A stretch of DNA of 41,444 nt, from positions 1 through 41,444 of the forward strand of contig NEEC01000093.1 in NCBI GenBank assembly GCA_002189035.1, given 5' to 3'. Of this stretch, positions 3,001-32,687 are shown in pieces (the stretch's first letter is position 1; the number at the start of each line of letters is the position of its first letter). The stretch comes from Utricularia gibba. Lineage: Eukaryota; Streptophyta; Magnoliopsida; Lamiales; Lentibulariaceae. The position numbers were made by a program, and so were the translations under genes. The notes under the pieces were generated by a model, which saw only the letters and a program-made list of their open reading frames with translations, was not told the origin of the DNA and ran no database searches.

Positions 3001-6000
3001 GCCTTCAATAGTGTCCCAAAATGGTCTAGCCATTGGGGACATCGCGACTCCTTTGCTCGTTTTTATGCGAAAATTATTCTCGGATTGCGAAACACGCGTG
3101 ATTCGTTAATATATGTCAAAATCTTGAATTTCGCGGCATTCTCATGCGTTTCTACGGGTGTGCTCGGGCCCGGGACTTCCTACACCAAGGGGTGGCCTCG
3201 CGCAGCCTTCGCAATTGACGCCACATCTTTCAAACCGTTTAGAGTCACATGGCACAAAGATACCGTTTCGAAGCTCATTCCGAGACGGTCGTTTTTCGTG
3301 TTGGGAGCTCGCCCATCCGAGGAAAGTTCGAAGCTCGACGGATGGACCTATATAAGCCTTCAATGGTGTCACAAGATGGCCTAGCCATTGGGGACGTTGG
3401 GACTCGTTTGCTCGTTTTATGCGAAAGTGATTCTCGGCTTGCGAAACACGCGTGATTCGTTAGTATATGTCAAAATCTTGAATTTCGCGGCATTCTCATG
3501 CGTTTCTCCGAGTGTGCTCGGGCCTGGGAATTCCTACACCAAGGGGGGGCCTCGCGCAGCTTCGCAATTGACGCCACATCTTCCAAACCGTTTAGAGTCA
3601 CGTGACAAAGCATTTCGTTTCGAAGCTCATTCTGAGACGTCAATTTTCGTGTTGGGAGCTTGCCCATCCGAGGAAAGTTCGAAACTCGAAGGATGCCTTA
3701 TATTAGCCTTCAATGGTGTCACAAAATGGTCTAGCCATTGGGACATCGCGACTCCATTGCCGTTTTTATGCGAAAATTGTTCTCGGATTGCGAAACACGC
3801 GTGATTCGTTAATATATGTCAAAATCTTTAATTTCGCGGCATTCTCATGCGTTTCAACGGTGTGCTCGGCCCTGGGAATTCCTACACAAAGGGTGGCCTC
3901 GCGCAGCCCTCACCATTGACGCCACATTGTCCAAACCGTTTAGATCACGCGACACACAGCATACCGTTTCGAAGCTCATTCTGAGACGATCGTTTTTCGT
4001 GTTGGGAGTTCGCCCATCCGAGGAAAGTTCGAAGCTCGACGGATGGCCCTATATAAGCCTTGAATGGTGTCAAAAATGGCCTAGCCATTGGGACGTTCGG
4101 ACTCGTTTGCTTGTTTTGATGCGAAAGTGATTCTCGGCTTGCAAAACACGCGTAATTCGTTAATATATTTCAAAATCTTGAATTTCGCGGCATTCTCATG
4201 CGTTTCTCCGAGTGTGCTCGGGCCCTGGGAATTCCTACATTAAGGGGTGGCCTCGCGCAGCCTTCGCAATTGACGCCACTTCCAAACCGTTTAGAGTCAC
4301 GGCACAAGCATTTCGTTTCGAAGCTCATTCCGAGACGGTCGTTTTTCGTGTTGGAGCTTGCCCATCCGAGGAAAGTTCGAAGCTCGAAGATGGCCTTATA
4401 TTAGCCTTCAATAGTGTCCAAAATGGCCTAGCCATTGGGGACGTTGGGATTCGTTTGCTCGTTTTATGCGAAAACTAATCTCGGCTTGCGAAACACGCGT
4501 GATTCGTTAATATATGTCAAAATCTTGAATTTCGCGGCATTCTCATGCGTTTCTCCGAGTGTGCTCGGGCCCTGGGAATTCCTACATTAAGGGGTGGCCT
4601 CGCGCAACCTTCGCCATTGACGCCACATCGTCCAAACCGTTTAGAGTCACACGACACACAGCATACCGTTTCGAAGCTCATTCCGAGACGGTCGTTTTTC
4701 GTGTTCGGAGCTTGCCCATCCGAGGAAAGTTCGAAGCTCGAAGATGGCCTTATATTAGCCTTCAATAGTGTCCAAAATGGCCTAGCCATTGGGACGTTGG
4801 GATTCGTTTGCTCGTTTTTATGCGAAAACTAATCTCGGCTTGCGAAACACGCGTGATTCGTTAATATATGTCAAAATCTTGAATTTCGCGGCATTCTCAT
4901 GCGTTTCTCCGAGTGTGCTCGGGCCCTGGGAATTCCTATTAAGGGGTGGCCTCGCGCAGCCTTCGCCATTGACGCCACATCGTCCAAACCGTTTAGAGTC
5001 ACGCGACACACAGCATACCGTTTCGAAGCTCATTCCGAGACGGTCGTTTTTCGTGTTGGGAGCTTGCCCATCCGAGGAAAGTTCGAAGCTCGAAGGATGG
5101 CCTTATATTAGCCTTCAATAGTGTCCCAAAATGGTCTAGCCATTGGGGACATGCGACTCCTTTGCTCGTTTTTATGCGAAAATTATTCTCGGATTGCGAA
5201 ACACGCGTGATTCGTTAATATATGTCAAATCTTGAATTTCGCGGCATTCTCATGCGTTTCTCCGAGTGTGCTCGAGCCCTGGGAATTCCTACATTAAGGG
5301 GTGGCCTCGCGCAGCCTTCGCCATTGACGCCACATCGTCCAAACCGTTTAGAGTCACGCGGCACACAGCTTACCGTTTCGAAGCTAATTCCGAGACGGTC
5401 GTTTTTCGTGTTGAGATCTCGCCCAGCAGAGGAAAGTTTGAAGCTCGAAGGATGGCCTTATATTAGCCTTCAAAGGTGTCACAAAATGGTCTAGCCATTG
5501 GGGTCGTTGCGACTCTTTGCTCGTTTTCATGCGAAAGTTGTTCTCGCTTGCGAAACACGCGTGATTCGTTAATATATGTCAAAATCTCTAATTTCGCGGC
5601 ATTCTCATGCGTTTCTACGGGTGTGCTCGGTCCCTGGGACTTCCTACACCAAGGGGTGGCCTCGCGCAGCCTTCGCCATTGACGCCACATCGTCCAAACC
5701 GTTTAGAGTCACGCAACACACAGCATACCGTTTCGAAACTCATTCTGAGACGATCGTTTTTTCGTGTTGGAAGTTCGCCCATCCGAGGAAAGTTCGAAGC
5801 TCGACGGATGGCCCTATATAAGCCTTAAATGGTGTCACAATATGGCCTAGCCATTGGGGACATCGCGACTCCTTTGCTCGTTTTTATGCGAAAATTATTC
5901 TCGGATTGCGAAACACGCGTGATTCGTTAATATATGTCAAAATCTTGAATTTCGCGGCATTCTCATGCGTTTCTCCGAGTGTGCTCGGGCCCTGGAATTC

Positions 6001-6680
6001 CTACATTAAGGGGTGGCCTCGCGCAGCCTTCGCCATTGACGCCACATCGTCCAAACCTTTTAGAGTCACGCGACACAAAGCATACCATTTCGAAGCTCAT
6101 TCCGAGACGATCGTTTTTCGTGTTGGGAGTTCGCCCATCCGAGGAAAGTTCGAAGCTCGACGGATGGCCCTATATAAGCCTTGAATGGTGTCACAAAATG
6201 GCCTAGCCATTGGGGACGTTGGGATTCGTTTGCTCGTTTTTATGCGAAAACTAATCTCGGCTTCCGAAACACGCGTGATTCGTTAATATATGTCAAAATC
6301 TTGAATTTCGCGGCATTCTCATGCGTTTCTCCGAGTGTGCTCGGGCCCTGGGAATTCCTACATTAAGGGGTGGCCTCGCGCAACCTTCGCCATTGACGCC
6401 ACATCGTCCAAACCGTTTAGAGTCACACGACACACACAGCAACCGTTTCGAAGCTCATTCCAAGACGGTCGTTTTCGTGTTGAGCTTGCCCATCCGACGA
6501 AAGTTCGAAGGTCGAAGGATGGCCTTATATTAGCCTTCAATGGTGTCACAAAATGGTCTAGCCATTGGGGACGTTGCGACTCTTTGCTCGTTTTCATGCG
6601 AAAGTTGTTCTCGGCTTGCGAAACACGCGTGATTCTTTAATGTATGTCAAAATCTTGAATTTCGCGGCATTCTCATGCGT
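1..6680. repeat. Indel-rich satellite sub-block
   Basis: Here the GTGTGCTCGG landmark recurs at about 326, 676, 1033, 1387, 2096, 2452, 2805, 3158, 3512, 3860, 4212 and 4559. The spacing is 347-357 bases instead of a steady 357. The shortening comes from many scattered 1-3 base losses, for example GCGCAGCTTCG for GCGCAGCCTTCG near 3555 and GCCATCGTCC for GCCACATCGTCC near 1096. Substitution differences between neighbours are modest. The block therefore looks like the core monomer with an excess of small deletions. Either the true array carries these indels or the consensus is less well polished here. The deletion-type frame breaks in the genes to the right favour the second reading. Confidence 0.8.
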
Positions 6681-7026
6681 TTCTCCGAGTGTGCTCGAAC
6701 CCTGGACTTTCTAACCAAGGGGTGGCCTCGCGCAGCCTTCGCAATTGACGCCACATCGTCCAAACCGTTTAGAGTCACGCGACACACAGCTTACCGTTTC
6801 GAAGCTGATTCCGAGACGGTCGTTTTTCGTGTTGGGATCTCGCCCAGCGAGGAAAGTTTGAAGCTCGAAGGATGGCCTTATATTAGCCTTCAAGGTGTCA
6901 AAAATGGCCTAGCCATTGGGGACGTTGGGACTCGTTTGCTCGTTTTGATGCGAAAGTGATTCTCGGCTTGCGAAACACGCGTGATTCGTTAAGATATGTC
7001 ACAATCTTGAATTTCGTAGCATTCTT

Positions 7027-7384
7027 ATGCATTTCTCCGAGTGTGCTCGGGCTCTGGGACTTCCTACACCAAGGGGTGGCCTCGCGCAGCCTTCGCCATT
7101 GACGCCACATCTTCAAAACCGTTTACAGTCACGTCGCACAAAGCATACCGTTTCGAAACTTTTTCCGAGACGGTCGTTTTTCGTGTTGGCAGCTCGCCCT
7201 GCCGAGGAAAGTTTGAAGCTCGAAGGATGGCCTTATATTAGTTTTCAACGGTCTCACAAAATGGCCTAGCCATTGGAGACGTTGCGACTCATTTGCTCGT
7301 TTTCATGCAAAAGTTGATCTCGGCTTGCGAGAACACGCGTGATTCTTTAATGTATGTCAAAATCTTGAATTTCACGGCATTCTC
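7027..7384. repeat. Rare monomer variant, recurs at 18086
   Basis: This monomer carries a distinctive set of changes: CAAAACCGTTTACAGTCACG in the middle box, a TCGCACAAAGCATACC segment, and a TTTTTCCGAGACGG segment. It is preceded by the unusual AAGATATGTCACAATCTTG and TTCGTAGCATTCTTATGC. The same combination appears at 18,044-18,442, 11,059 bases (31 monomers) downstream. In both places the next monomer is the CCGAGTGTGCTCGAAC...CTTTCTAACCC type. Shared rare variants with the same neighbour indicate that the two sites descend from one segment. Confidence 0.75.
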
Positions 7385-8098
7385 ATGCGTTTCTCCGAGT
7401 GTGCTCGAACTCTGGGACTTTCTAACCCAAGGGGTGGCCTCGCGCAGCCTTCGCAATTGACGCCACATCGTCCAAACCGTTTAGAGTCACGCGACACACA
7501 GCTTACCGTTTCGAAGCTGATTCCGAGACGGTCGTTTTTCGTGTTGGGATCTCGCCCAGCAGAGGAAAGTTTGAAGCTCGAAGGATGGCCTTATATTAGC
7601 CTTCAAAGGTGTCACAAAATGGTCTAGCCATTGGGGACGTTGCGACTCCTTTGCTCGTTTTCATGCGAAAGTTGTTCTCGGCTTGCGAAACATGCGTGAT
7701 TCGTTAATATATGTCAAAATCTCTAATTTCGCGGCATTCTCATGCGTTTCTACGGGTGTGCTCGGTCCCTGGGACTTCCTACACCAAGGGGTGGCCTCGC
7801 GCACCCTTCGCCATTGACGCCGCATCGTCCAAACCGTTTAGAGTCACGCAACACACAGCATACCGCTTCGAAGCTCATTCCGAGACGGTTGTTTTTTGTG
7901 TTGGGAGCTCGCCCATCCGACGAAAGTTCGAAGGTCGAAGGATGGCCTTATATTAGCCTTGAATGGTGTCAGAAAATGGCCTAGCCATTGGGGACGTTGC
8001 GACTCCTTTGCTCGTTTTTATGCGAAAATTGTTCTCGGATTGCGAAACACGCGAGATTCGTTAATATATGTAAAAATCCTGAATTTCGCGGCATTCTC

Positions 8099-10595
8099 AT
8101 GCATTTCTCCGAGTGTGCTCGAACCCTGGGACTTTCTAACCCAAGGGGTGGCCTCGCGCAGCCTTCGCAATTGACGCCACATCGTCCAAACCGTTTAGAG
8201 TCACGCGACACACAGCTTACCGTTTCGAAGCTGATTCCGACACGATCGTTTTTCGTGTTGGGATCTCGCCCAGCAGAGGAAAGTTTGAAGCTCGAAGGAT
8301 GGCCTTATATTAGCCTTCAAAGGTGTCACAAAATGGCCTAGCCATTAGGGACGTTGCGGCTCCTTTGCTCGTTTCTATGCGAAAATTGTTCTCGGCTTGC
8401 GAAACACGCGTGATTCGTTAATATATGTCAAAATCTTGAATTTCGCGGCATTCTCATGCGTTTCTACGGGTGTGCTCGGGCCCCGGGACTTCCTACACCA
8501 AGGGGTGGCCTCGCGCAGCCTTCGCCTTTCACGCCACATCGTCCAAACCATTTAGAGTCACGCAACACACAGCATACCGTTTCGAAACTCATTCCGAGAC
8601 GGTCGTTTTTCGTGTTGCGAGCTCGCCCATCCGAGGAAAGTTCGAAGGTCGAAGGATGGCCTTATATTAGCCTTCAATGGTGTCACAAAATGGTCTAGCC
8701 ATTGGGGACGTTGCGACTCCTTTGCTCGTTTTCATGCGAAAGGATTTCTCGGCTTGCGAAAGACGCGTGATTCGTTAATATATATCAAAATCTTGAATTT
8801 CGCGGCATTCTCATGCGTTTCTCCGAGTGTGCTCGGGCCCTAGGACTTCCTACACCAAGGGGTGGCCTCGCGCAGCCTTCGCCATTAACGCAACATCGTC
8901 CAAACCGTTTAGAGTCACGTGACACACAACATGCCGTTTCACAGCTCATTCTGAGACGATCGTTTTTCGTGATGGGAGATCGCCCATCCGAGGAAAGTTC
9001 GAAGCTCGACGGATGGCCCTATATAAGCCTTCAATGGTGTCACAAAATGGTCTAGCCATTGGGGACGTTGGGACTCGTTTGCTCATTTTCATGCGAAAGT
9101 GATTCTCGGCTTGCGAAACACGCGTGATTCGTTAATATATGTCAAAATCTCTAATTTCGCGGCATTCTCATGCGTTTCTACGGGTGTGCTCGGTCCCTGG
9201 GACTTCCTACACCAAGGGGTGGCCTCGCGCAGCCTTCGCCATTGACGCCACATCGTCCAAACCGTTTAGAGTCACGCAACACACAGCATACCGCTTCGAA
9301 GCTCATTCCGAGACGGTTGTTTTTTGTGTTGGGAGCTCGCCCATCCGACGAAAGTTCGAAGGTCGAAGGATGGCCTTATATTAGCCTTCAATGGTGTCAC
9401 AAAATGGTCTAGCCATTGGGGACGTTGCGACTCCTTTGCTCGTTTTCATGCGAAAGTTGTTCTCGGCTTGCGAAACACGCGTGATTCTTTAATGTATGTC
9501 AAAATCTTGAATTTCACGGCATTCTCATGCGTTTCTCCGAGTGTGCTCGAACCCTGGGACTTTCTAACCAAGGGGTGGCCTCGCGCAGCCTTCGCCATTG
9601 ACGCAACATCGTCCAAACCGTTTAGAGTCACGTGACACACAACATGCCGTTTCACAGCTCATTCTGAGACGATCGTTTTTCGTGTTGGGAGCTCGCCCAT
9701 CCGAGGAAAGTTCGAAGCTCGATGGATGGCCCTATATAAGCCTTCAATGGTGTCACAAAATGGTCTAGCCATTGGGGACGTTGGGACTCGTTTGCTCATT
9801 TTCATGCGAAAGTGATTCTCGGCTTGCGAAACACGCGTGATTCGTTAATATATGTCAAAATCTCTAATTTCGCGGCATTCTCATGCGTTTCTACGGGTGT
9901 GCTCGGTCCCTGGGACTTCCTACACCAAGGGGTGGCCTCGCGCAGCCTTCGCCATTGACGCCACATCGTCCAAACCGTTTAGAGTCACGCAACACACAGC
10001 ATACCGCTTCGAAGCTCATTCCGAGACGGTTGTTTTTTGTGTTGGGAGCTCGCCCATCCGACGAAAGTTCGAAGGTCGAAGGATGGCCTTATATTAGCCT
10101 TCAATGGTGTCACAAAATGGTCTAGCCATTGGGGACATCGCGACTCCATTGCCCGTTTTTATGCGAAAATTGTTCTCGGATTGCGAAACACGCGTGATTC
10201 GTTAATATATGTCAAAATCTTTAATTTCGCATCATTCTCATGCGTTTCAACGGCTGTGCTCGGGCCCTGGGAATTCCTACACCAAGGGTGGCCTCGCGCA
10301 ACCCTCACCATTGACGCCACATCGTCCAAACTGTTTAGAGTCACGCGACACACAGCATACCGTTTCGAAGCTCATTCTGAGACGATCGTTTATCGTGTTG
10401 GGAGTTCGCCCATCCGAGGAAAGTTCGAAGCTCGACGGATGGCCCTATATAAGCCTTGAATGGTGTCAGAAAATGGCCTAGCCATTGGGGACGTTGCGAC
10501 TCCTTTGCTCGTTTTTATGCGAAAATTGTTCTCGGATTGCGAAACACGCGAGATTCGTTAATATATGTAAAAATCCTGAATTTCGCGGCATTCTC
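8099..10595. repeat. Seven-monomer segment, copy 1 (2,497 bp)
   Basis: I named monomer types by diagnostic variants. This segment reads F (8099), E (8456), A (8813), B (9170), C' (9527), B (9883) and G (10240). F has CATTCTCATGCATTTCTCC and CTTTCTAACCC. E has TCGCCTTTCACGCC. A has GCCATTAACGCAACATCG with GATGGGAGATCG. B has TACCGCTTCGAAG with GGTTGTTTTTTGTG. The same F-E-A-B-C-B order starts again at 10596, a 2,497-base offset. This order shows amplification of multi-monomer blocks rather than single monomers. Confidence 0.8.
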
Positions 10596-12734
10596 ATGCA
10601 TTTCTCCGAGTGTGCTCGAACCCTGGGACTTTCTAACCCAAGGGGTGGCCTCGCGCAGCCTTCGCAATTGACGCCACATCGTCCAAACCGTTTAGAGTCA
10701 CGCGACACACAGCTTACCGTTTCGAAGCTGATTCTGACACGATCGTTTTTCGTGTTGGGATCTCGCCCAGCAGAGGAAAGTTTGAAGCTCGAAGGATGGC
10801 CTTATATTAGCCTTCAAAGGTGTCACAAAATGGCCTAGCCATTAGGGACGTTGCGGCTCCTTTGCTCGTTTTTATGCGAAAATTTTTCTCGGCTTGCGAA
10901 ACACGCGTGATTCGTTAATATATGTCAAAATCTTGAATTTCGCGGCATTCTCATGCGTTTCTACGGGTGTGCTCGGGCCCCGGGACTTCCTACACCAAGG
11001 GGTGGCCTCGCGCAGCCTTCGCCTTTCACGCCACATCGTCCAAACCATTTAGAGTCACGCAACACACAGCATACCGTTTCGAAACTCATTCCGAGACGGT
11101 CGTTTTTCGTGTTGCGAGCTCGCCCATCCGAGGAAAGTTCGAAGGTCGAAGGATGGCCTTATATTAGCCTTCAATGGTGTCACAAAATGGTCTAGCCATT
11201 GGGGACGTTGCGACTCCTTTGCTCGTTTTCATGCGAAAGGATTTCTCGGCTTGCGAAAGACGCGTGATTCGTTAATATATATCAAAATCTTGAATTTCGC
11301 GGCATTCTCATGCGTTTCTCCGAGTGTGCTCGGGCCCTAGGACTTCCTACACCAAGGGGTGGCCTCGCGCAGCCTTCGCCATTAACGCAACATCGTCCAA
11401 ACCGTTTAGAGTCACGTGACACACAACATGCCGTTTCAAGCTCATTCTGAGACGATCGTTTTTCGTGATGGGAGATCGCCCATCCGAGGAAAGTTCGAAG
11501 CTCGACGGATGGCCCTATATAAGCCTTCAATGGTGTCACAAAATGGTCTAGCCATTGGGGACGTTGGGACTCGTTTGCTCATTTTCATGCGAAAGTGATT
11601 CTCGGCTTGCGAAACACGCGTGATTCGTTAATATATGTCAAAATCTCTAATTTCGCGGCATTCTCATGCGTTTCTACGGGTGTGCTCGGTCCCTGGGACT
11701 TCCTACACCAAGGGGTGGCCTCGCGCAGCCTTCGCCATTGACGCCACATCGTCCAAACCGTTTAGAGTCACGCAACACACAGCATACCGCTTCGAAGCTC
11801 ATTCCGAGACGGTTGTTTTTTGTGTTGGGAGCTCGCCCATCCGACGAAAGTTCGAAGGTCGAAGGATGGCCTTATATTAGCCTTCAATGGTGTCACAAAA
11901 TGGTCTAGCCATTGGGGACGTTGCGACTCCTTTGCTCGTTTTCATGCGAAAGTTGTTCTCGGCTTGCGAAACACGCGTGATTCTTTAATGTATGTCAAAA
12001 TCTTGAATTTCACGGCATTCTCATGCGTTTCTCCGAGTGTGCTCGAACCCTGGGACTTTCTAACCCAAGGGGTGGCCTCGCGCAGCCTTCGCCATTGACG
12101 CAACATCGTCCAAACCGTTTAGAGTCACGTGACACACAACATGCCGTTTCACAGCTCATTCTGAGACGATCGTTTTTCGTGTTGGGAGCTCGCCCATCTG
12201 AGGAAAGTTCGAAGCTCGACGGATGGCCCTATATAAGCCTTCAATGGTGTCACAAAATGGTCTAGCCATTGGGGACGTTGGGACTCGTTTGCTCATTTTC
12301 ATGCGAAAGTGATTCTCGGCTTGCGAAACACGCGTGATTCGTTAATATATGTCAAAATCTCTAATTTCGCGGCATTCTCATGCGTTTCTACGGGTGTGCT
12401 CGGTCCCTGGGACTTCCTACACCAAGGGTGGCCTCGCGCAGCCTTCGCCATTGACGCCACATCGTCCAAACCGTTTAGAGTCACGCAACACACAGCATAC
12501 CGCTTCGAAGCTCATTCCGAGACGGTTGTTTTTTGTGTTGGGAGCTCGCCCATCCGACGAAAGTTCGAAGGTCGAAGGATGGCCTTATATTAGCCTTCAA
12601 TGGTGTCACAAAATGGTCTAGCCATTGGGACGTTGCGACTCCTTTGCTCGTTTTCATGCGAAAGGATTTCTCGGCTTGCGAAAGACGCGTGATTCGTTAA
12701 TATATATCAAAATCTTGAATTTCGCGGCATTCTC
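10596..12734. repeat. Six-monomer partial second copy of the 8099 segment
   Basis: Monomers F (10596), E (10953), A (11310), B (11666), C (12023) and B (12379) repeat the order seen from 8099, displaced by 2,497 bases. After the second B the array switches to an A monomer at 12735 instead of the G monomer found at 10240, marking a recombination breakpoint. Differences between copies are few. One is a small deletion in the A monomer, TTTCAAGCTC at 11436 where copy 1 has TTTCACAGCTC. Another is C (CATCTGAGG) versus C' (CATCCGAGG with CGATGGATGG). Confidence 0.75.
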
Positions 12735-14518
12735 ATGCGTTTCTCCGAGTGTGCTCGGGCCCTAGGACTTCCTACACCAAGGGGTGGCCTCGCGCAGCCT
12801 TCGCCATTAACGCAACATCGTCCAAACCGTTTAGAGTCACGTGACACACAACATGCCGTTTCACAGCTCATTCTGAGACGATCGTTTTTCGTGATGGGAG
12901 ATCGCCCATCCGAGGAAAGTTCGAAGCTCGACGGATGGCCCTATATAAGCCTTCAATGGTGTCACAAAATGGTCTAGCCATTGGGACGTTGGGACTCGTT
13001 TGCTCATTTTCATGCGAAAGTGATTCTCGGCTTGCGAAACACGCGTGATTCGTTAATATATGTCAAAATCTCTAATTTCGCGGCATTCTCATGCGTTTCT
13101 ACGGGTGTGCTCGGTCCCTGGGACTTCCTACACCAAGGGGTGGCCTCGCGCAGCCTTCGCCATTGACGCCACATCGTCCAAACCGTTTAGAGTCACGCAA
13201 CACACAGCATACCGCTTCGAAGCTCATTCCGAGACGGTTGTTTTTTGTGTTGGGAGCTCGCCCATCCGACGAAAGTTCGAAGGTCGAAGGATGGCCTTAT
13301 ATTAGCCTTCAATGGTGTCACAAAATGGTCTAGCCATTGGGGACGTTGCGACTCCTTTGCTCGTTTTCATGCGAAAGTTGTTCTCGGCTTGCGAAACACG
13401 CGTGATTCTTTAATGTATGTCAAAATCTTGAATTTCACGGCATTCTCATGCGTTTCTCCGAGTGTGCTCGAACCCTGGGACTTTCTAACCCAAGGGGTGG
13501 CCTCGCGCAGCCTTCGCCATTGACGCAACATCGTCCAAACCGTTTAGAGTCACGTGACACACAACATGCCGTTTCACAGCTCATTCTGAGACGATCGTTT
13601 TTCGTGTTGGGAGCTCGCCCATCTGAGGAAAGTTCGAAGCTCGACGGATGGCCCTATATAAGCCTTCAATGGTGTCACAAAATGGTCTAGCCATTGGGGA
13701 CGTTGGGACTCGTTTGCTCATTTTCATGCGAAAGTGATTCTCGGCTTGCGAAACACGCGTGATTCGTTAATATATGTCAAAATCTCTAATTTCGCGGCAT
13801 TCTCATGCGTTTCTACGGGTGTGCTCGGTCCCTGGGACTTCCTACACCAAGGGGTGGCCTCGCGCAGCCTTCGCAATTGACGCCACATCGTCCAAACCGT
13901 TTAGAGTCACGCGACACACAGCTTACCGTTTCGAAGCTGATTCTGACACGATCGTTTTTCGTGTTGGGATCTCGCCCAGCAGAGGAAAGTTTGAAGCTCG
14001 AAGGATGGCCTTATATTAGCCTTCAAAGGTGTCACAAAATGGCCTAGCCATTAGGGACGTTGCGGCTCCTTTGCTCGTTTTTATGCGAAAATTGTTCTCG
14101 GCTTGCGAAACACGCGTGATTCGTTAATATATGTCAAAATCTTGAATTTCGCGGCATTCTCATGCGTTTCTACGGGTGTGCTCGGGCCCCGGGACTTCCT
14201 ACACCAAGGGGTGGCCTCGCGCAGCCTTCGCCTTTCACGCCACATCGTCCAAACCATTTAGAGTCACGCAACACACAGCATACCGTTTCGAAACTCATTC
14301 CGAGACGGTCGTTTTTCGTGTTGCGAGCTCGCCCATCCGAGGAAAGTTCGAAGGTCGAAGGATGGCCTTATATTAGCCTTCAATGGTGTCACAAAATGGT
14401 CTAGCCATTGGGGACGTTGCGACTCCTTTGCTCGTTTTCATGCGAAAGGATTTCTCGGCTTGCGAAAGACGCGTGATTCGTTAATATATATCAAAATCTT
14501 GAATTTCGCGGCATTCTC
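12735..14518. repeat. Five-monomer higher-order repeat, copy 1 (A-B-C-D-E, 1,784 bp)
   Basis: The monomer order is A (12735), B (13091), C (13448), D (13805), E (14162), with lengths 356, 357, 357, 357 and 357. D carries the diagnostic GCTTACCGTTTCGAAGCTGATTCTGACACG and GCCATTAGGG. The one-base shortening of A is TTGGGACGTTGGG near 12,980 where other A monomers have TTGGGGACG. The next copy carries the same deletion at the equivalent site. The unit is followed directly by a second copy. Confidence 0.88.
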
Positions 14519-16301
14519 ATGCGTTTCTCCGAGTGTGCTCGGGCCCTAGGACTTCCTACACCAAGGGGTGGCCTCGCGCAGCCTTCGCCATTAACGCAAC
14601 ATCGTCCAAACCGTTTAGAGTCACGTGACACACAACATGCCGTTTCACAGCTCATTCTGAGACGATCGTTTTTCGTGATGGGAGATCGCCCATCCGAGGA
14701 AAGTTCGAAGCTCGACGGATGGCCCTATATAAGCCTTCAATGGTGTCACAAAATGGTCTAGCCATTGGGACGTTGGGACTCGTTTGCTCATTTTCATGCG
14801 AAAGTGATTCTCGGCTTGCGAAACACGCGTGATTCGTTAATATATGTCAAAATCTCTAATTTCGCGGCATTCTCATGCGTTTCTACGGGTGTGCTCGGTC
14901 CCTGGGACTTCCTACACCAAGGGGTGGCCTCGCGCAGCCTTCGCCATTGACGCCACATCGTCCAAACCGTTTAGAGTCACGCAACACACAGCATACCGCT
15001 TCGAAGCTCATTCCGAGACGGTTGTTTTTTGTGTTGGGAGCTCGCCCATCCGACGAAAGTTCGAAGGTCGAAGGATGGCCTTATATTAGCCTTCAATGGT
15101 GTCACAAAATGGTCTAGCCATTGGGGACGTTGCGACTCCTTTGCTCGTTTTCATGCGAAAGTTGTTCTCGGCTTGCGAAACACGCGTGATTCTTTAATGT
15201 ATGTCAAAATCTTGAATTTCACGGCATTCTCATGCGTTTCTCCGAGTGTGCTCGAACCCTGGGACTTTCTAACCCAAGGGGTGGCCTCGCGCAGCCTTCG
15301 CCATTGACGCAACATCGTCCAAACCGTTTAGAGTCACGTGACACACAACATGCCGTTTCACAGCTCATTCTGAGACGATCGTTTTTCGTGTTGGGAGCTC
15401 GCCCATCTGAGGAAAGTTCGAAGCTCGACGGATGGCCCTATATAAGCCTTCAATGGTGTCACAAAATGGTCTAGCCATTGGGGACGTTGGGACTCGTTTG
15501 CTCATTTTCATGCGAAAGTGATTCTCGGCTTGCGAAACACGCGTGATTCGTTAATATATGTCAAAATCTCTAATTTCGCGGCATTCTCATGCGTTTCTAC
15601 GGGTGTGCTCGGTCCCTGGGACTTCCTACACCAAGGGGTGGCCTCGCGCAGCCTTCGCAATTGACGCCACATCGTCCAAACCGTTTAGAGTCACGCGACA
15701 CACAGCTTACCGTTTCGAAGCTGATTCTGACACGATCGTTTTTCGTGTTGGGATCTCGCCCAGCAGAGGAAAGTTTGAAGCTCGAAGGATGGCCTTATAT
15801 TAGCCTTCAAAGGTGTCACAAAATGGCCTAGCCATTAGGGACGTTGCGGCTCCTTTGCTCGTTTTTATGCGAAAATTGTTCTCGGCTTGCGAAACACGCG
15901 TGATTCGTTAATATATGTCAAAATCTTGAATTTCGCGGCATTCTCATGCGTTTCTACGGGTGTGCTCGGGCCCCGGGACTTCCTACACCAAGGGGTGGCC
16001 TCGCGCAGCCTTCGCCTTTCACGCCACATCGTCCAAACCATTTAGAGTCACGCAACACACAGCATACCGTTTCGAAACTCATTCCGAGACGGTCGTTTTT
16101 CGTGTTGCGAGCTCGCCCATCCGAGGAAAGTTCGAAGGTCGAAGGATGGCCTTATATTAGCCTTCAATGGTGTCACAAAATGGTCTAGCCATTGGGGACG
16201 TTGCGACTCCTTTGCTCGTTTTCATGCGAAAGGATTCTCGGCTTGCGAAAGACGCGTGATTCGTTAATATATATCAAAATCTTGAATTTCGCGGCATTCT
16301 C
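14519..16301. repeat. Five-monomer higher-order repeat, copy 2 (A-B-C-D-E, 1,783 bp)
   Basis: The order is A (14519), B (14875), C (15232), D (15589), E (15946). By eye it is close to base-for-base identical with 12735-14518, including the TTGGGACG one-base loss in A near 14,764. The only length difference I noticed is one T fewer in E (AAGGATTCTC near 16,233 versus AAGGATTTCTC). Different monomer types within a unit differ far more from each other than the same type does between units. That is the definition of a higher-order repeat. Confidence 0.88.
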
Positions 16302-18085
16302 ATGCGTTTCTCCGAGTGTGCTCGGGCCCTAGGACTTCCTACACCAAGGGGTGGCCTCGCGCAGCCTTCGCCATTAACGCAACATCGTCCAAACCGTTTA
16401 GAGTCACGTGACACACAACATGCCGTTTCACAGCTCATTCTGAGACGATCGTTTTTCGTGATGGGAGATCGCCCATCCGAGGAAAGTTCGAAGCTCGACG
16501 GATGGCCCTATATAAGCCTTCAATGGTGTCACAAAATGGTCTAGCCATTGGGGACGTTGGGACTCGTTTGCTCATTTTCATGCGAAAGTGATTCTCGGCT
16601 TGCGAAACACGCGTGATTCGTTAATATATGTCAAAATCTCTAATTTCGCGGCATTCTCATGCGTTTCTACGGGTGTGCTCGGTCCCTGGGACTTCCTACA
16701 CCAAGGGGTGGCCTCGCGCAGCCTTCGCAATTGACGCCACATCGTCCAAACCGTTTAGAGTCACGCGACACACAGCTTACCGTTTCGAAGCTGATTCTGA
16801 CACGATCGTTTTTCGTGTTGGGATCTCGCCCAGCAGAGGAAAGTTTGAAGCTCGAAGGATGGCCTTATATTAGCCTTCAAAGGTGTCACAAAATGGCCTA
16901 GCCATTAGGGACGTTGCGGCTCCTTTGCTCGTTTTTATGCGAAAATTGTTCTCGGCTTGCGAAACACGCGTGATTCGTTAATATATGTCAAAATCTCTAA
17001 TTTCGCGGCATTCTCATGCGTTTCTACGGGTGTGCTCGGTCCCTGGGACTTCCTACACCAAGGGGTGGCCTCGCGCAGCCTTCGCCATTGACGCCACATC
17101 GTCCAAACCGTTTAGAGTCACGCAACACACAGCATACCGCTTCGAAGCTCATTCCGAGACGGTTGTTTTTTGTGTTGGGAGCTCGCCCATCCGACGAAAG
17201 TTCGAAGGTCGAAGGATGGCCTTATATTAGCCTTCAATGGTGTCACAAAATGGTCTAGCCATTGGGGACGTTGCGACTCCTTTGCTCGTTTTCATGCGAA
17301 AGTTGTTCTCGGCTTGCGAAACACGCGTGATTCTTTAATGTATGTCAAAATCTTGAATTTCACGGCATTCTCATGCGTTTCTCCGAGTGTGCTCGAACCC
17401 TGGGACTTTCTAACCCAAGGGTGGCCTCGCGCAGCCTTCGCCATTGACGCAACATCGTCCAAACCGTTTAGAGTCACGTGACACACAACATGCCGTTTCA
17501 CAGCTCATTCTGAGACGATCGTTTTTCGTGTTGGGAGCTCGCCCATCCGAGGAAAGTTCGAAGCTCGATGGATGGCCCTATATAAGCCTTCAATGGTGTC
17601 ACAAAATGGTCTAGCCATTGGGGACGTTGGGACTCGTTTGCTCATTTTCATGCGAAAGTGATTCTCGGCTTGCGAAACACGCGTGATTCGTTAATATATG
17701 TCAAAATCTCTAATTTCGCGGCATTCTCATGCGTTTCTACGGGTGTGCTCGGTCCCTGGGACTTCCTACACCAAGGGGTGGCCTCGCGCAGCCTTCGCAA
17801 TTGACGCCACATCGTCCAAACCGTTTAGAGTCACGCAACACACAGCATACCGCTTCGACGCTCATTCCGAGATGGTTGTTTTTTGTGTTGGGATCTCGCC
17901 CAGCAGAGGAAAGTTTGAAGCTCGAAAGATGGCCTTATATTAGCCTTCAAAGGTGTCACAAAATGGCCTAGCCATTGGGGACGTTGGGACTCCTTTGCTC
18001 GTTTTCATGCGAAAGTGATTCTCGGCTTGCGAAACACGCGTGATTCGTTAAGATATGTCACAATCTTGAATTTCGTAGCATTCTT
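16302..18085. repeat. Rearranged continuation of the higher-order repeat
   Basis: After the second five-monomer unit the order becomes A (16302), D (16659), B (17016), C' (17373), and a mosaic monomer at 17729. The A-to-D step skips B and C, as expected from an unequal exchange. The 17729 monomer starts like D, carries B-type TACCGCTTCG and GGTTGTTTTTTGTG in its middle, and returns to D-type CTCGCCCAGCAGAGG. That pattern suggests gene conversion or crossover inside the monomer. C' at 17373 shares CGATGGATGG with the C' at 9527. Confidence 0.7.
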
Positions 18086-18442
18086 ATGCATTTCTCCGAG
18101 TGTGCTCGGGCTCTGGGACTTCCTACACCAAGGGGTGGCCTCGCGCAGCCTTCGCCATTGACGCCACATCTTCAAAACCGTTTACAGTCACGTCGCACAA
18201 AGCATACCGTTTCGAAGCTTTTTCCGAGACGGTCGTTTTTCGTGTTGGCAGCTCGCCCAGCCGAGGAAAGTTTGAAGCTCGAAGGATGGCCTTATATTAG
18301 TCTTCAACGGTCTCACAAAATGGCCTAGCCATTGGAGACGTTGCGACTCATTTGCTCGTTTTCATGCGAAAGTTGATCTCGGCTTGCGAGACACGCGTGA
18401 TTCTTTAATGTATGTCAAAATCTTGAATTTCACGGCATTCTC

Positions 18443-20100
18443 ATGCGTTTCTCCGAGTGTGCTCGAACCCTGGGACTTTCTAACCCAAGGGTGGCCTCGC
18501 GCAGCCTTCGCAATTGACGCCACATCGTCCAAACCGTTTAGAGTCACGCGACACACAGCTTACCGTTTCGAAGCTGATTCCGAGACGGTCGTTTTTCGTG
18601 TTGGCAGCTCGCCCAGCCGAGGAAAGTTTGAAGCTCGAAGGATGGCCTTATATTAGTCTTCAACGGTCTCACAAAATGGCCTAGCCATTGGAGACGTTGC
18701 GACTCATTTGCTCGTTTTCATGCGAAAGTTGATCTCGGCTTGCGAGACACGCGTGATTCTTTAATGCATGTCAAAATCTTGAATTTCACGGCATTCTCAT
18801 GCGTTTCTCCGAGTGTGCTCGAACCCTGGGACTTTCTAACCCAAGGGGTGGCCTCGCGCAGCCTTCGCAATTGACGCCACATCGTCCAAACCGTTTAGAG
18901 TCACGCGACACACAGCTTACCGTTTCGAAGCTGATTCCGAGACGGTCGTTTTTCGTGTTGGGATCTCGCCCAGCAGAGGAAAGTTTGAAGCTCGAAGGAT
19001 GGCCTTATATTAGCCTTCAAAGGTGTCACAAAATGGCCTAGCCATTGGGGACGTTGCGACTCCTTTGCTCGTTTTCATGCGAAAGTTGTTCTCGGCTTGC
19101 GAAACACGCGTGATTCTTTAACGTATGTCAAAATCTTGAATTTCACGGCATTCTCATGCGTTTCTCCGAGTGTGCTCGAACCCTGGGACTTTCTAACCCA
19201 AGGGGTGGCCTCGCGCAGCCTTCGCAATTGACGCCACATCGTCCAAACCGTTTAGAGTCACGCGACACACAGCTTACCGTTTCGAAGCTGATTCTGAGAC
19301 GGTCGTTTTTCGTGTTGGGATCTCGCCCAGCAGAGGAAAGTTTGAAGCTCGAAGGATGGCCTTATATTAGTCTTCAACGGTCTCACAAAATGGCCTAGCC
19401 ATTGGTGACGTTGCGACTCCTTTGCTCGTTTTCATGCGAAAGTTGTTCTCGACTTGCGAAACACGCGTGATTCTTTAATGTATGTCAAAATCTTGAATTT
19501 CACGGCATTCTCATGCGTTTCTCCGAGTGTGCTCGAACCCTGGGACTTTCTAACCCAAGGGGTGGCCTCGCGCAGCCTTCGCAATTGACGCCACATCGTC
19601 CAAACCGTTTAGAGTCACGCGACACACAGCTTACCGTTTCGAAGCTGATTCCGACACGGTCGTTTTTCGTGTTGGGATCTCGCCCAGCAGAGGAAAGTTT
19701 GAAGCTCGAAGGATGGCCTTATATTAGCCTTCAAAGGTGTCACAAAATGGCCTAGCCATTAGGGACGTTGCGGCTCCTTTGCTCGTTTTTATGCAAAAAT
19801 TGTTCTCGGCTTGCGAAACACGCGTGATTCGTTAATATATGTCAAAATCTTGAATTTCGCGGCATTCTCATGCGTTTCTACGGGTGTGCTCGGGCCCCGG
19901 GACTTCCTACACCAAGGGGTGGCCTCGCGCAGCCTTCGCCTTTCACGCCACATCGTCCAAACCAGTTAGAGTCACGCGACACACAGCTTACCGTTTCGAA
20001 GCTGATTCCGAGACGGTCGTTTTTCGTGTTGGGAACTCGCCCAGCAGAGGAAAGTTTGAAGCTCGAAGGATGGCCTTATATTAGCCTTCAATGGTGTCAC
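18443..20100. repeat. Run of near-identical single-type monomers
   Basis: Monomers starting near 18443, 18799, 19156 and 19513 are all of one type: CCGAGTGTGCTCGAACCCTGGGACTTTCTAACCC, GCTTACCGTTTCGAAGCTGATTC, and CTCGCCCAGC(A/C)GAGG. The one at 19870 is E-like at its start and changes to this type in the middle. Here amplification acted on single monomers rather than on multi-monomer units. Confidence 0.7.
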
Positions 20101-20226
20101 AAAATGGCCAAGCCATTGTGGACGTTGTGATTCGTTGGCCCGTTTTGATGCGAAAGTTGTAATGGGCTTCCAAAACTCGCGTGATTCACTAATATATGTT
20201 AAATTCTAGAATTTCGCGGCATTCTC
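20101..20226. repeat. Edge-class satellite segment embedded next to the core
   Basis: This stretch has GCCATTGTGGACGTTGTGATTCGTTGGCCCGTTTTGATGCG, GGGCTTCCAAAACTCGCGTG and ATATATGTTAAATTCTAGAATTTCG. That combination is otherwise found only at 23,555-23,660, in the divergent right flank. The bases on both sides (before 20,100 and after 20,500) are core-like. The segment therefore marks a junction between two sequence classes of the array. Confidence 0.75.
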
Positions 20227-21074
20227 ATGCGTTTCTCCGGGTGTGCTCGAGCCCTAGGACTTCCTACACCAAGGGGTGGCCTCGTGCAACATTCGCAATT
20301 GACGCCACATCATCCAAATCGTTTAGAGTCACGCGACACACAGTATACCGTTTCGAAGCTCATTCTGAGACAGTCGTTTATCGTGTTGGGAGCTCGCCTA
20401 TTAAAACAAAGTTTGAAGCACGAGGACTGGCCTTATATAAGCCTTCAACGGTGTCACAAAATGGCCAAGCCTTTGGGGACGTTGGGACTCGTTTGCTCGT
20501 TTTCATGCGAAAATGATTCTCGGCTTGCGAAACACGCGTGATTCGTTATTATATGTCAAAATCTTGAATTTCGCGGCATTCTCATGCGTTTCTACGGGTG
20601 TGTTCGGGCCCTGAGACTTCTTACACCAAGGGGTGGCCTCGCGCAGCCTTCGCAATTGACGCCACATCGTCCGAACCGTTTAGAGTCACGCGACACACAG
20701 CATACCGTTTCGAAGCTTATTCCGAGACGGTCGTTTTTTGTGTGGGGAGATCGCCCATCCGAGGAAAGTTGGAAGCTCGAAGGATGGCCTTCTATTAGCC
20801 TTTAATGGTGTCACAAAATGGTCTAGCCATTGAGGACGTTGCAACTCCTTTGCTCGTTTTTATGCGAAAATTGTTTTTGGATTGGGAAACACTCGTGATT
20901 CGTTAATATATGTCAAAAGCTTGAATTTCACGGCATTCTCATGCCTTTCTCCGAGTGTGCTCGAGCCCTGGGACTTCCTACACCAAGGGGTGGCCTCGTG
21001 CAGCCATCGCCAATGACGCCACATCTTCCAACCCGTTTAGAGTCACGTGGCACAAAGCATACCGTTTCGAAGCC

Positions 21075-21925
21075 TATTCTTAGACGGTCGTTTTTCGTGT
21101 TAGGAGCTGGCCCATCCGAGGAAAGTTCGAAGCTCGAAGCATGGCCTTCTATTAGCCTTTAATGGTGTCACAAAATGGTCTAGCCATTAGGGACGTTGCG
21201 ACTTCTTTGCTCGTTTTCATGCGAAAGTTGTTCTCGGCTTTCGAAACACGCGTGATTCTTTAATATATGTCAAAATCTTGAATTTCGCAGCATTCTCAAG
21301 CGTTTCTCCGAGTGTGCTCGGGCCCTGGGACTTCCCACACCAAGGGGTGACCTCGCGCAGCCTTCGCAATTGACGCCACATCTTCCAACCCGTTTAGAGT
21401 CACGCGACACACAGCATACCGTTTCGAAGCTCATTCTTAGACGGTCGTTTTTCGTGTTAGGAGCTGGCCCATCCGAGGAAAGTTCGAAGCTCGAAGCATG
21501 GCCTTCTATTAGCCTTTAATGGTGTCACAAAATGGTCTAGCCATTAGGGACGTTGCGACTTCTTTGCTCGTTTTCATGCGAAAGTTGTTCTCGGCTTTCG
21601 AAACACGCGTGATTCTTTAATATATGTCAAAATCTTGAATTTCGCAGCATTCTCAAGCGTTTCTCCGAGTGTGCTCGGGCCCTGGGACTTCCCACACCAA
21701 GGGGTGACCTCGCGCAGCCTTCGCAATTGACGCCACATCTTCCAACCCGTTTAGAGTCACGCGACACACAGCATACCGTTTCGAAGCTCATTCTTAGACG
21801 GTCGTTTTTCGTGTTAGGAGCTGGCCCATCCGAGGAAAGTTCGAAGCTCGAAGCATGGCCTTCTATTAGCCTTTAATGGTGTCACAAAATGGTCTAGCCA
21901 TTAGGGACGTTGCGACTTCTTTGCT
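21075..21925. repeat. Local amplification of one monomer, about 2.4 near-identical copies
   Basis: The private variants ATTCTTAGACGGTCG, GTGTTAGGAGCTGGCCC, GAAGCATGGCCTTCTATTAGCC and GCCATTAGGGACGTTGCGACTTC occur at 21,077, 21,434 and 21,791, exactly 357 apart. Between them TTCTCAAGCG replaces TTCTCATGCG at 21,298 and 21,655. The copies are almost identical and differ from monomers on either side, so this is a young single-monomer tandem duplication. Confidence 0.8.
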
Positions 21926-23082
21926 CATTTTCATGCGAAAGTTGTTCTCGGCTTGCGAAACACGCGTGATTCGTTAATATATGTCAAAATCTTGAATTTC
22001 GCGGCATTCTCATGCGTTTCTCTGGGTGTGCTCGGGCCCTGGGAATTCCTACACCAAGGGGTGGCCTCGCGCAGCCCTCACCATTGACGCCACATCGTCC
22101 AAACCGTTTACAGTCACGCGACACACAGCATACCGTTTCGAAGCTCATTCTGAGACGATCGTTTTTCGTGTTGGGAGTTCGCCCATCCGAGGAAAGTTCG
22201 AAGCTCGACGGATGGCCCTATATAAGCCTTGAATGGTGTCACAAAATGGCCTAGCCATTGGGGACGTTGCAACTCCTTTGCTCGTTTTTATGCGAAAGTT
22301 GTTCTCGGCTTGCGAAACACGCGTGATTCGTTAATATATGTCAAAATCTTGAATTTCGCGGCATTCTCATGCGTTTCTCCGAGTGTGCTCGGGCCCTAGG
22401 ACTTCCCACACCAAGGGGTGGCCTCGCGCAGCCTTTGCAATTGACGCCACATCGTCCAAACCGTTTAGAGTCACGCGACACACAGCATACCGTTTCGAAG
22501 CTCATTTCGAGACGGTCGTTTTTCGTGTTGGGAGCTCCCCAATCCGAGGAAAGTTCGTAGATCGAAGGATGGCCTTCTATTAGCCTTTAATGGTGTCACA
22601 AAATGGTCTAGCCATTGGGCACGTTGCAACTCCTTTGCTCGTTTTTATGCAAAAATTGTTCTCGGATTGCGAAACACGCGTGAGTCGTTAATATATGTGA
22701 AAAGCTTGACGTTCGCGGCATTCTCATGCGTTTCTACGAGTGTGCTCGGGCCCTGGGACATCCTACACCAAGGGGTGGCCTCGCGCAACCTTCGCAATTG
22801 ACGCCACATTGTCCGGACCGTTTAGAGTCACGCGACACACAGTATACTGTTTCGAAGCTGATTCCGAGACGGTCGTTTTTCGTGTTGGGATCTCGCTCAG
22901 CCGAGGAAAGTTTGAAGCTCGAAGGATAGCCTTATATTAGCCTTCAAAGGTGTCACAAAATGGCCTAGCCATTGGGGACGTTGGGACTCGTTTGCTCGTT
23001 TTGATGCGAATGTGATTCTCGGCTTGCGAAACACGCGTGATTCGTTAATATATGTCAAAATCTTGAATTTCGCGGCATTCTC

Positions 23083-23309
23083 ATGCGTTTCTCCGAGTGT
23101 GCTCGGGCTCTGGGACTTCCTACACCAAGGGGTGGCCTCGCGCAGCCTTCACTATTGACGCCACATCTTCCAAACCGTTTACAGTCACGTCGCACAAAGC
23201 ATACCGTTTGCGACTCCTTTGCTCGTTTTCATGCAAAAGGATTTCTCGGCGTGCGAAAGACGCGTGATTCGTTAATATATGTCAAAATCTTGAATTTCGC
23301 GGCATTCTC
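23083..23309. repeat. Truncated 227-bp monomer with internal deletion
   Basis: Monomer starts at 23083 and 23310 are only 227 bases apart, 130 short of a full unit. The sequence runs normally to GCACAAAGCATACCGTTT near 23,209, then jumps to GCGACTCCTTTGCTCGTTTTC, which normally lies about 130 bases further on. The joined ends share a short CGTTTGCGAC/CGTTGCGAC match, so deletion at microhomology is plausible. Confidence 0.88.
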
Positions 23310-23535
23310 ATGCGTTTCTCCAAGTGTGCTCGGGCCCTGGGACTTTCTAACCCAAGGGGTGGCCTCGCGCAGCCTTCGCAATCGACGCCGTATCTTCCTA
23401 ACCGTCTTGATTCACGCGACACACAGCATACCGTTTCTAAGCTCATTCTGAGACGGTCGTTTTTCGTATTGGGAGCTCGCCCATCCGAGGAAAGTTTGAA
23501 GCTCGAAGGATGGCCTTATATTAGCCTTCAATGAT

Positions 23536-29230: not shown

Positions 29231-29634
29231 AGTCAAAACAATTATACATAGGGTGTCCATTTTTTTCACACAATATCCCGCACATGTTAACTGTGGTCAA
29301 TGATGGAGTAGGACCAACTGTTACCAAATCTTACTTTTATGAGTTGCTTGTTAGTTGGAGGGAGTTGATGGGCCGACACTCGCAATGATGGGAAAAGAGC
29401 TTAATAGACCGAGTTGGACGGATGGGTGTTCCGCCGGAATGAGTTGATGGGTCAAACCCACAATGATAGAAAAGGGCCTCGGGTGGGCTCATGGGGGAGA
29501 AAAAGGAATATTAAATTGGAGGTTAAGCGGCGGCTAAGCGGAGGAAGACGGGACGGAAAGAGGAAAATCGCTGGGAAGCTGGTGGGCGGCGGCGATCGGA
29601 GGGCATGGGCCAGGCGCGCGGAGGTTAGCTCCAC
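29231..29634 (+). other. Satellite-to-gene boundary and ALG2 upstream region
   Basis: This is unique sequence between the last recognisable satellite and the ALG2 leader. It contains an imperfect ~39-base direct repeat beginning GAGTTGATGGG at 29,362 and again at 29,441. It then becomes purine- and GC-rich (about 29,480-29,630, with GGCGGCGGCGATCGGAGGGC). A GC-rich stretch of this kind just upstream of a plant housekeeping gene is likely promoter plus 5' UTR. I see no clear TATA box or second gene. Confidence 0.5.
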
Positions 29635-29777
29635 GTAAGAAAACTGTCACTTTGGGTTATATCGCGTTATTGCCGGGAGTTGCCGTTTGTAAGCGGTGAA
29701 ATCTGTGATGTCAATGATACATATAGGTTAAAAGGCTCTCAAGGTGTGGTTTTTTTTTTTTTTTGTTGTTTATGTAG
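29635..29777 (+). other. Possible 5' UTR intron of ALG2
   Basis: A consensus-like donor, CCAC|GTAAGAA, lies at 29,635. A long T-run (29,749-29,764) followed by GTTTATGTAG ends at 29,777. The ALG2 start codon is 42 bases further on. The T-run would serve as the polypyrimidine tract of the acceptor. This is inferred from splice-site appearance only. Confidence 0.35.
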
Positions 29778-29819
29778 CTTCTGGATCTGGGATAGTATCA
29801 AAGAATAACTGAGATTATC

Positions 29820-32080: not shown

Positions 32081-32687
32081 CCAATCTAAGATCTCGATCC
32101 AGGATGGAGAAGAGGTTGGTGATATCGTATGCGACTTTGTTTTCTTCTTGTGTATTTTTTCTATTTAAAGAAAAATACTTTGTTTAGTGGCAATGAGTGC
32201 TTATAAGTTAAACCGTGTTATAGAATGTGAGAGTTAAGCCAGAGTTTGGAAACATGGTAAAATATACAATGTATGTCAAATCGTTGGGATAGATTCTTTG
32301 TTCCTAATTTCTAAATAACTGGTTTCATAGCCAACTTTAATATTCCTGGTTGACCTTATCGAGTACTTAATGAATTTATTTGCCTTAGGCATTAGGCAGC
32401 CGGCCAAACAGTGATTTTAATTAGGTGGCCGCATTAACTAACTAAATTAGTGAAGAATCAATTGTGTGCGCTATGCTGCGCTACTTCTACTTGTCCCCTC
32501 CCAAAAATGTCAACGAACTGTTTATCCTGATTTGTTCCTGTCCATTCTACTCTATTTATTTCATCAGTCGTCATTCAGGAATCTAACATTTCACCATTCT
32601 AACCTCTGCCCTGGTTAAGTTCTGTTCTCTTTTGCGAACATTCATGGTGGTGAGAAACTGATTTTCTTCTGTGGGGTGGTTCCGAAA
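32081..32687 (+). other. Intergenic: ALG2 3' UTR and TM9SF upstream region
   Basis: This is AT-rich single-copy sequence. The ALG2 3' UTR probably lies in the first ~200 bases. The 5' leader of the next gene probably lies in the last ~100, before ATG at 32,688. I see no additional gene, repeat or convincing TATA box. Confidence 0.5.

Follow-up and report, generated by a model that had tools for sequence, protein, structure and literature searches.

The window analysed here is the entire contig C385 of Utricularia gibba (NEEC01000093.1; 41,444 bp), which starts inside an array of a 357-bp satellite. In this array, two adjacent copies of a five-monomer unit, A-B-C-D-E, show no substitution with respect to each other and follow older, related blocks of monomers. 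The monomers were delimited by wrap-around alignment and then compared all against all. The array forms a long head-to-tail series of one monomer family, with a period of 357 bp and ~65 copies, as is characteristic of satellite DNA. The array, the two units and the positions that relate them are the following.

1–23209, + strand, tandem array of the 357-bp satellite (Tandem Repeats Finder; ~65 monomers)
12735–14518, + strand, first copy of the five-monomer unit (A 12735, B 13091, C 13448, D 13805, E 14162)
14519–16301, + strand, second copy of the five-monomer unit (A 14519, B 14875, C 15232, D 15589, E 15946)
14451, + strand, single T by which the two units differ, absent from a T-run of the second copy
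12559–16728, + strand, complete substitution-free duplicated tract (lag 1784/1783; two 1-base homopolymer indels)
12983–12985 and 14767–14769, + strand, G-run of 3 instead of 4 in A (also in the hybrid monomer F, near 12627)

In the direct alignment of 12735–14518 with 14519–16301, 1783 positions are identical, with 0 substitutions and one 1-base indel; multiple alignments score this indel, situated in E, as 2–3 substitutions, which corresponds to one missing base in the direct alignment. The units are spaced by 1784 and then 1783 bp. From 12735 on, monomers five apart differ by 0, 0, 0, 0, 3 (the E indel) and 0 bases, in contrast to the 29–37 differences between adjacent ones, and the monomers inside one unit differ by 10–37 bases, with a mean identity of 92.0%. 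The longest exact repeat in 1–23560, among 1982 maximal matches of at least 40 bp, measures 1826 bp at a lag of 1784 (12627–14452 vs 14411–16236). With indels allowed, 12559–14944 and 14342–16728 align with 0 substitutions; because the tract thus spans 12559–16728, it holds ~2.3 units and not exactly two. Words private to A (5 places) and to D (4 places) are confined to C385 in the genome searched, which comprises 100,091,633 bases in 516 contigs.

A preliminary description of this DNA had placed A-B-C-D-E at 12735 and 14519 with a ~1,784-bp period, and its phase, coordinates and order are all recovered, together with the greater likeness of monomers five apart than of adjacent ones on which it depended. 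Both off-diagonal bands that it proposed to look for are present, that at five monomers between the two units and that at seven monomers between 8099–9882 and 10596–12379 (5 substitutions, 2 gaps). The description had also pointed to a one-base deletion shared by the A monomers of both units. The deletion is indeed found in both and is absent from the A monomers at 8813, 11310 and 16302, but it recurs in monomer 12380 (F) and is therefore not specific to A. As a homopolymer change it is a weak marker, and it was rejected as a strong signature of the unit; the case for two units rests on substitutions and not on this deletion.

Upstream of the two units lie older blocks with a related monomer order, and two hybrid monomers are situated where the older and newer blocks meet or inside the newer ones.

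8099–10595, + strand, older seven-monomer block D'-E-A-B-C'-x-y (alignment)
10596–12734, + strand, second older block D'-E-A-B-C, followed by hybrid F (alignment)
12380–12734, + strand, hybrid monomer F, 5' part as B or x and 3' part as E, with a crossover between ~12559 and 12664
13805–14161 (copy 1) and 15589–15945 (copy 2), + strand, hybrid monomer D, first 42–70 bases as B, x or monomer 17729, the remainder as D'

From 8099 on, the monomers follow the order D' E A B C' x y / D' E A B C F / A B C D E / A B C D E / A D'' B C''. Apart from two 1-base gaps, F agrees with B as far as 12664 and with E starting at 12559; modelled as one crossover between B or x and E, it leaves 0 mismatches, whereas its best single parent leaves 8. 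In D, the first 60 bases are identical to B and the remainder follows D' with one mismatch, so that a hybrid of B, x or monomer 17729 with D' leaves 1 mismatch, against 9 to the best single parent. Across 37 monomers, the one-crossover fit gains 5.73 mismatches on average, compared with 1.63 for permuted columns (highest mean among 200 permutations, 2.68). F and D each stand after a C monomer, the position held by x in the older block. Between the two D' blocks there are 5 substitutions, between the two D blocks 0, and the D' blocks are accordingly taken to have separated earlier; for both reasons, the position after C and the greater divergence of the D' blocks, D and F are favoured as the products of exchange.

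Under the working definition used with TRASH (PMC10199239, in the portion cited), a higher-order block comprises 3 or more monomers, each with no more than 5 variants. Six such block pairs occur among the 64 monomers of C385, at lags of 5, 7, 9, 16, 4 and 11, the longest being 6 monomers. Among the 37 monomers of 7027–20226, the observed number of pairs, longest run and total are 6, 6 and 25, respectively, whereas the shuffle maxima are 3, 5 and 9; none of 2000 shuffles of monomer order reaches the observed count, longest run or total. The higher-order organisation that had been described for a 357-bp family is therefore a real block in the pairwise, TRASH-type sense, in a land plant. In the classical sense the picture is divided: the units are far more alike than their monomers (0 substitutions vs ~92% identity inside the unit), but a long array of tandem unit copies is absent, with ~2.3 copies in C385 and four copies of another unit in contig C410.

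Outside the window, the same satellite fills several contigs. C74 (84,521 bp) and C382 (33,702 bp) consist of it throughout, with a mean divergence of 2.35% and 2.9% and with 6.1 and 7.8 deletions per monomer, respectively. C410 (81,575 bp) is likewise satellite throughout, except for five badly aligned monomers at 56–59 and 64–65 kb; these (56463–59300, 64800–65600) have 42–87 apparent substitutions and many inserted or missing bases, and are perhaps small insertions or the effect of a bad consensus. C402 (2,629,907 bp) opens with satellite on the − strand. In its first 140 kb, 38 kb were examined (1–3000, 100001–120000 and 125001–140000) and all were satellite-like, and one satellite word recurs 19 times from 6.6 to 105 kb, so that the entire first 140 kb is probably satellite. 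Genome-wide, a 27-mer of the consensus has 236 matches on the + strand and 180 on the − strand, and a 66-mer has 159 and 141. On the + strand, 235 of the 236 27-mers and all 159 66-mers fall on C74, C382, C410 and C385, the last 27-mer falling on C411 at a place shared with C385. The complete listing of another word (98 of 98) contains C74, C382, C402 and C410 only. C385 is thus one edge of a larger array.

C410 carries an island of divergent monomers with a few core-like ones at ~13.8–37 kb, enclosed in core-like sequence. At C410:17686–24804, four head-to-tail copies of another five-monomer unit yield 15 consecutive monomer pairs at lag 5, 10 at lag 10 and 5 at lag 15. The copies differ by 2–8 substitutions and 2–16 indel columns; in copy 4, the first and fourth monomers have 4 differences and the third and fifth have 0. 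This pentamer is a stronger higher-order repeat than that in C385. At least 23 substitutions separate its first five monomers from A to E; the two pentamers are thus built of different monomer types, and their equal period may be due to chance. Over the whole of C410, 97 block pairs were counted, against a shuffle mean of 30.7 (maximum 66 of 200). Lags with a five-monomer block below the 5% permutation minimum number six in C74 and five in C382. Lag 11 (~3.9 kb) is prominent in C385, C382 and C74 (z −4.3, −5.2 and −3.0, uncorrected for the number of lags) and also occurs among the C410 blocks; a fixed 11-monomer period of the core was considered and dropped, multiples of 11 being inconsistent in C74.

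The remaining features of the window belong to the array margins and to the genic flank.

312–6674, + strand, deletion-rich part near the contig start (18 monomers, mean 3.78 deletions per monomer; mean 18.2 substitutions vs the core consensus)
23210–29100, + strand, decaying array edge (identity with the core consensus drops from ~92% to ~70%)
23113–41444, + strand, stretch appearing to repeat the start of contig C411 (943,016 bp; 4.3 of 18.3 kb compared)
31760–32080, + strand, glycosyltransferase group 1 exon (Pfam)
32837–34662, + strand, EMP70 gene (Pfam; homoeologue on contig C505)
37305–38389, + strand, KNOX gene exons with KNOX1 and ELK domains (Pfam)
40692–41444, + strand, PB1-domain gene (Pfam)

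The edge decays on both sides of the array, at 23–29 kb of C385 and at 135–141 kb of C402, where the identity falls from ~96% to 82–86% between 135 and 140 kb and weak satellite persists at 140.0–141.5 kb. Monomer 22012–22368 has 8 substitutions from the core consensus and its neighbours in the edge (19870–23082) have 25 to 42; it seems to have been brought into the edge from the core. A truncated monomer of 227 bp (23083–23309, 130 bases missing) marks the transition to the strongly diverged edge; the first base of contig C411 falls within it. As regards the origin of the satellite, derivation from coding sequence was rejected, every frame of the core consensus containing 2–5 stops, and so was derivation from a known structured RNA, with no Rfam match in the window. 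A strict CENP-B box was not found in the core consensus, which has no clear internal sub-repeat (best circular self-match 32%).

On the gene side, the Pfam scan covered 6 of the 28 open frames at 27.3–41.4 kb of C385, which match glycosyltransferase group 1, EMP70 (two frames), KNOX1, ELK and PB1; a perfect 62-bp tandem duplication lies at 31361–31484, beside the glycosyltransferase exons. In the 18.5 kb beyond the C402 edge, 9 of 11 frames were scanned, with homeodomain-HALZ, ABC transporter and hydrolase matches. No transposon domain occurs in the frames scanned of either flank. At the far end of C402, the last 2 kb contain no telomere repeat and no Rfam match and are locally G+C-rich. Both flanks find a counterpart on C505. 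The closest match listed for the C385 flank (31331–34662), besides C411, is C505:2924182–2927252 on the − strand (81% in the main match, 87% in EMP70), and that for the C402 flank (155,890–160,000), besides itself, is C505:3091281–3103460 on the + strand (72–84%). Long DNA queries can miss perfect matches and some homoeologue lists omit the query's own place, so that further homoeologues may be missing from these comparisons. The array-facing ends of the two flanks face each other across 164 kb of C505. Four pieces of this interval (C505:2927252–3091281; 14.1 kb) contain no clear satellite, their best local scores being 20.5–25 vs shuffle maxima of 20–24, and 6 of 8 frames scanned there represent pectate lyase, transferase, CAP, DnaJ, DUF3444 and U-box domains. 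Most likely, this is one array, homogenised in its core and decaying at its edges, within a gene-rich interval of one homoeologue, a locus to which the unanchored contigs C74, C382 and C410 would also belong.

Taken together, the units of C385 probably arose when a block of five monomers was recently duplicated in tandem in the array's edge zone, after a seven-monomer block had been shortened by unequal exchange. The hybrids F and D, as read from the sequence, link the older and newer blocks and suggest that the seven-monomer block became the five-monomer one, with the direction not fixed. In the proposed course of events, unequal exchange of x with D' in D'-E-A-B-C'-x-y would have removed y and made the hybrid D, giving the cycle E-A-B-C-D; the hybrid F would derive from a comparable exchange between x and E; and the five-monomer cycle would then have been duplicated in place, with no substitution since. 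Misaligned recombination, namely unequal crossing-over, gene conversion or break-induced replication, would suffice for these steps, whose direction, order and exchange mechanism we infer. No coding or sequence-specific function is proposed for the satellite, which may at most serve in heterochromatin packing.

A number of observations weigh against this account. The mosaicism is mutual: B fits as an F-to-18799 hybrid with 1 mismatch and D' as an 18799-to-D hybrid with 2, so the hybrid fit alone leaves the direction unfixed, and growth from five to seven monomers is possible. The 5' parents B and x, and for D also monomer 17729, are indistinguishable, and the identity of the units could come from recent gene conversion. 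The compared parts of the C385 flank coincide with C411 (23113–25612 is identical to C411:1–2500, and 32837–34662 and C411:9724–11550 are 100% alike, differing in length by a single base). The beginning of C411 falls at the array edge; C385 overlaps this contig, was left unmerged with it and reaches 23.1 kb further into the array. With this flank redundant, the units rest on one contig. In the core sample C402:100001–120000, 25 block pairs compare with a shuffle mean of 25.8; across the contigs, block duplication is thus plain among divergent monomers and weak or absent where the array is homogenised. Just 43 of the 180 27-mers and 30 of the 141 66-mers on the − strand lie in the 38 kb examined of C402; scaled to 140 kb, these correspond to ~158 and ~111, and the remainder possibly lies elsewhere. 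For the homoeologous interval, KNOX exon matches are listed on C413, C244 and C1 and not at the C505 place; C413 has EMP70 and KNOX 6–10 kb apart, with no C402-flank match listed nearby; and C402:141501–151500 has weak scattered matches only (best E value 6.6e-12 in an incomplete list). C413:575767–585328 appears as a further homoeologous EMP70-KNOX segment, known from search matches alone.

Other explanations concern the nature of the second unit and the manner in which it arose. With ~2.3 unit copies, the tract could have arisen by one tandem duplication whose extent is five monomers by coincidence, and be no classical higher-order repeat; in classical arrays the unit is repeated many times, and human alpha-satellite pentamers stand in many tandem copies. 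This is a tenable description and the less probable one, since the order D(D')-E-A-B-C recurs in the older blocks at 8099 and 10596, which implies that the block was copied more than once. The block might also have been amplified through an extrachromosomal circle of five monomers and reinserted. Such a route is hardly separable from in-place exchange by the letters of the array alone; we hold it to be unlikely, as F and D follow C, where in-place exchange within the older block would put them, and as only ~2.3 copies exist. Finally, the second unit could be an artefact, one 1784-bp period having been inserted when reads were joined inside the repeat. The units differ by one homopolymer base only, and such differences are a common error of the presumed read type; the redundancy of C385 with the C411 start points the same way, as do the many deletions per monomer in C74, C382 and C410 (5.8 in the last) and in the first part of C385. 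However, deletions per monomer in C385 fall from 3.78 (312–6674, probably poorly polished) to 0.46 (6675–19869) and 0.11 (19870–23082), and the units lie in the clean zone of 0.46. The lag-1784 tract is bounded by mosaic monomers (F to its left, D'' to its right), related blocks differing by substitutions sit at other lags (7, 9 and 16), and the four tandem pentamers of C410 are distinguishable by substitutions. The PacBio sequencing of U. gibba gave mean subreads of 10,385 bp (PMC5793159, in the portion cited), against a tract of 4.2 kb. An assembly duplication is accordingly quite unlikely.

The array could also represent the putative centromere of one chromosome, its blocks being centromeric higher-order repeats as in Arabidopsis or human. 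It totals ~370 kb of satellite (~140 kb of it, on C402, partly inferred), runs head to tail with higher-order blocks and decaying edges, and has a monomer that would be about two nucleosome repeats long; chromosome-specific centromeres do exist. We regard this as rather unlikely. Among the matches listed, apparently in the order of the contigs, no exact satellite word falls on C1–C73, a set that takes in C3 and C4, each of which has telomere repeats at its two ends, although diverged copies escape such a search; the scanned frames of both flanks are free of transposon domains, the homoeologous C505 interval is gene-rich where sampled, and higher-order repeats of Salicaceae also occur in non-centromeric arrays (PMC12046899, in the portion cited). 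The putative centromeres of U. gibba are said to lack satellite repeats (PMC8333044, citing the genome paper, in the passage at hand), and the array does not contradict this, because no exact word is listed on C1–C73, C3 and C4 included. A more specific version, in which the array is a young putative centromere on one homoeologous segment, acquired after genome duplication in an interval that is gene-rich and satellite-free where sampled on C505, appears improbable; if true, the blocks of C385 and C410 would document how higher-order repeats come into being, in plants of a group whose putative centromeres were described without satellites.

The duplicated block, read as a product of exchange within the array, can be set beside known systems, as far as the cited portions of the studies describe them. 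The view that higher-order organisation is less often documented in plants does not hold: Arabidopsis has 9,795,284 higher-order block pairs by TRASH (PMC10199239), the VG-V satellite of Vicia has a five-monomer higher-order repeat of 186 bp (PMC2543021), and higher-order repeats are present in poplar and willow arrays, non-centromeric ones included (PMC12046899), and in Lathyrus arrays (PMC7004042). Like A. thaliana CEN178 (PMC10199239), the C385 array is a plant satellite with pairwise blocks of at least 3 monomers and at most 5 variants; unlike CEN178, with 178-bp monomers in megabase centromeric arrays, it has a 357-bp monomer, 6 pairs and at most a possible centromeric role. The VG-V satellite is similarly homogenised as a five-monomer unit, but its monomers are ~37 bp by division, in contrast to a unit of 1784 bp in ~2.3 copies. 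Higher-order blocks are shared with the non-centromeric Palv148 and Salix180 arrays of Salicaceae, where PMC12046899 reports no CENH3 peaks; those are relatively ancient and occupy many chromosomes, whereas the 357-bp array is apparently at one locus. In the human alpha-satellite pentamers, five divergent monomers also form the unit, neighbouring units are up to 97–100% alike and the edges are monomeric, but identity between monomers is ~70% and the pentamers occur on several chromosomes (PMC8122249), compared with ~92% and ~2.3 copies in C385. Within the family, Gn7c161 of Genlisea nigrocaulis (PMC4542322) is likewise a satellite of a small-genome Lentibulariaceae plant; with 161 bp, a centromeric association and fluorescence in situ hybridisation signals on each chromosome, it is set apart, by description, from the 357-bp repeat at probably one locus. 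Among the literature matches listed, titles and abstract openings contain no description of a 357-bp Utricularia satellite.

Because higher-order repeats of plants are already well known, the C385 block adds little as evidence for them; it is a genuine but ordinary product of satellite evolution, in which arrays grow by unequal exchange. The preliminary description had missed the hybrid-linked older blocks, the weakness of the homopolymer marker, the position at the array edge and the better pentamer of C410. What is particular here is a readable link between seven- and five-monomer blocks, together with a homoeologue that is satellite-free where sampled. The relation of the longer to the shorter block, through hybrids and then duplication, can be read monomer by monomer, and the homoeologous segment of C505 offers an array-free comparison for the arrival and growth of a satellite in a gene-rich interval.

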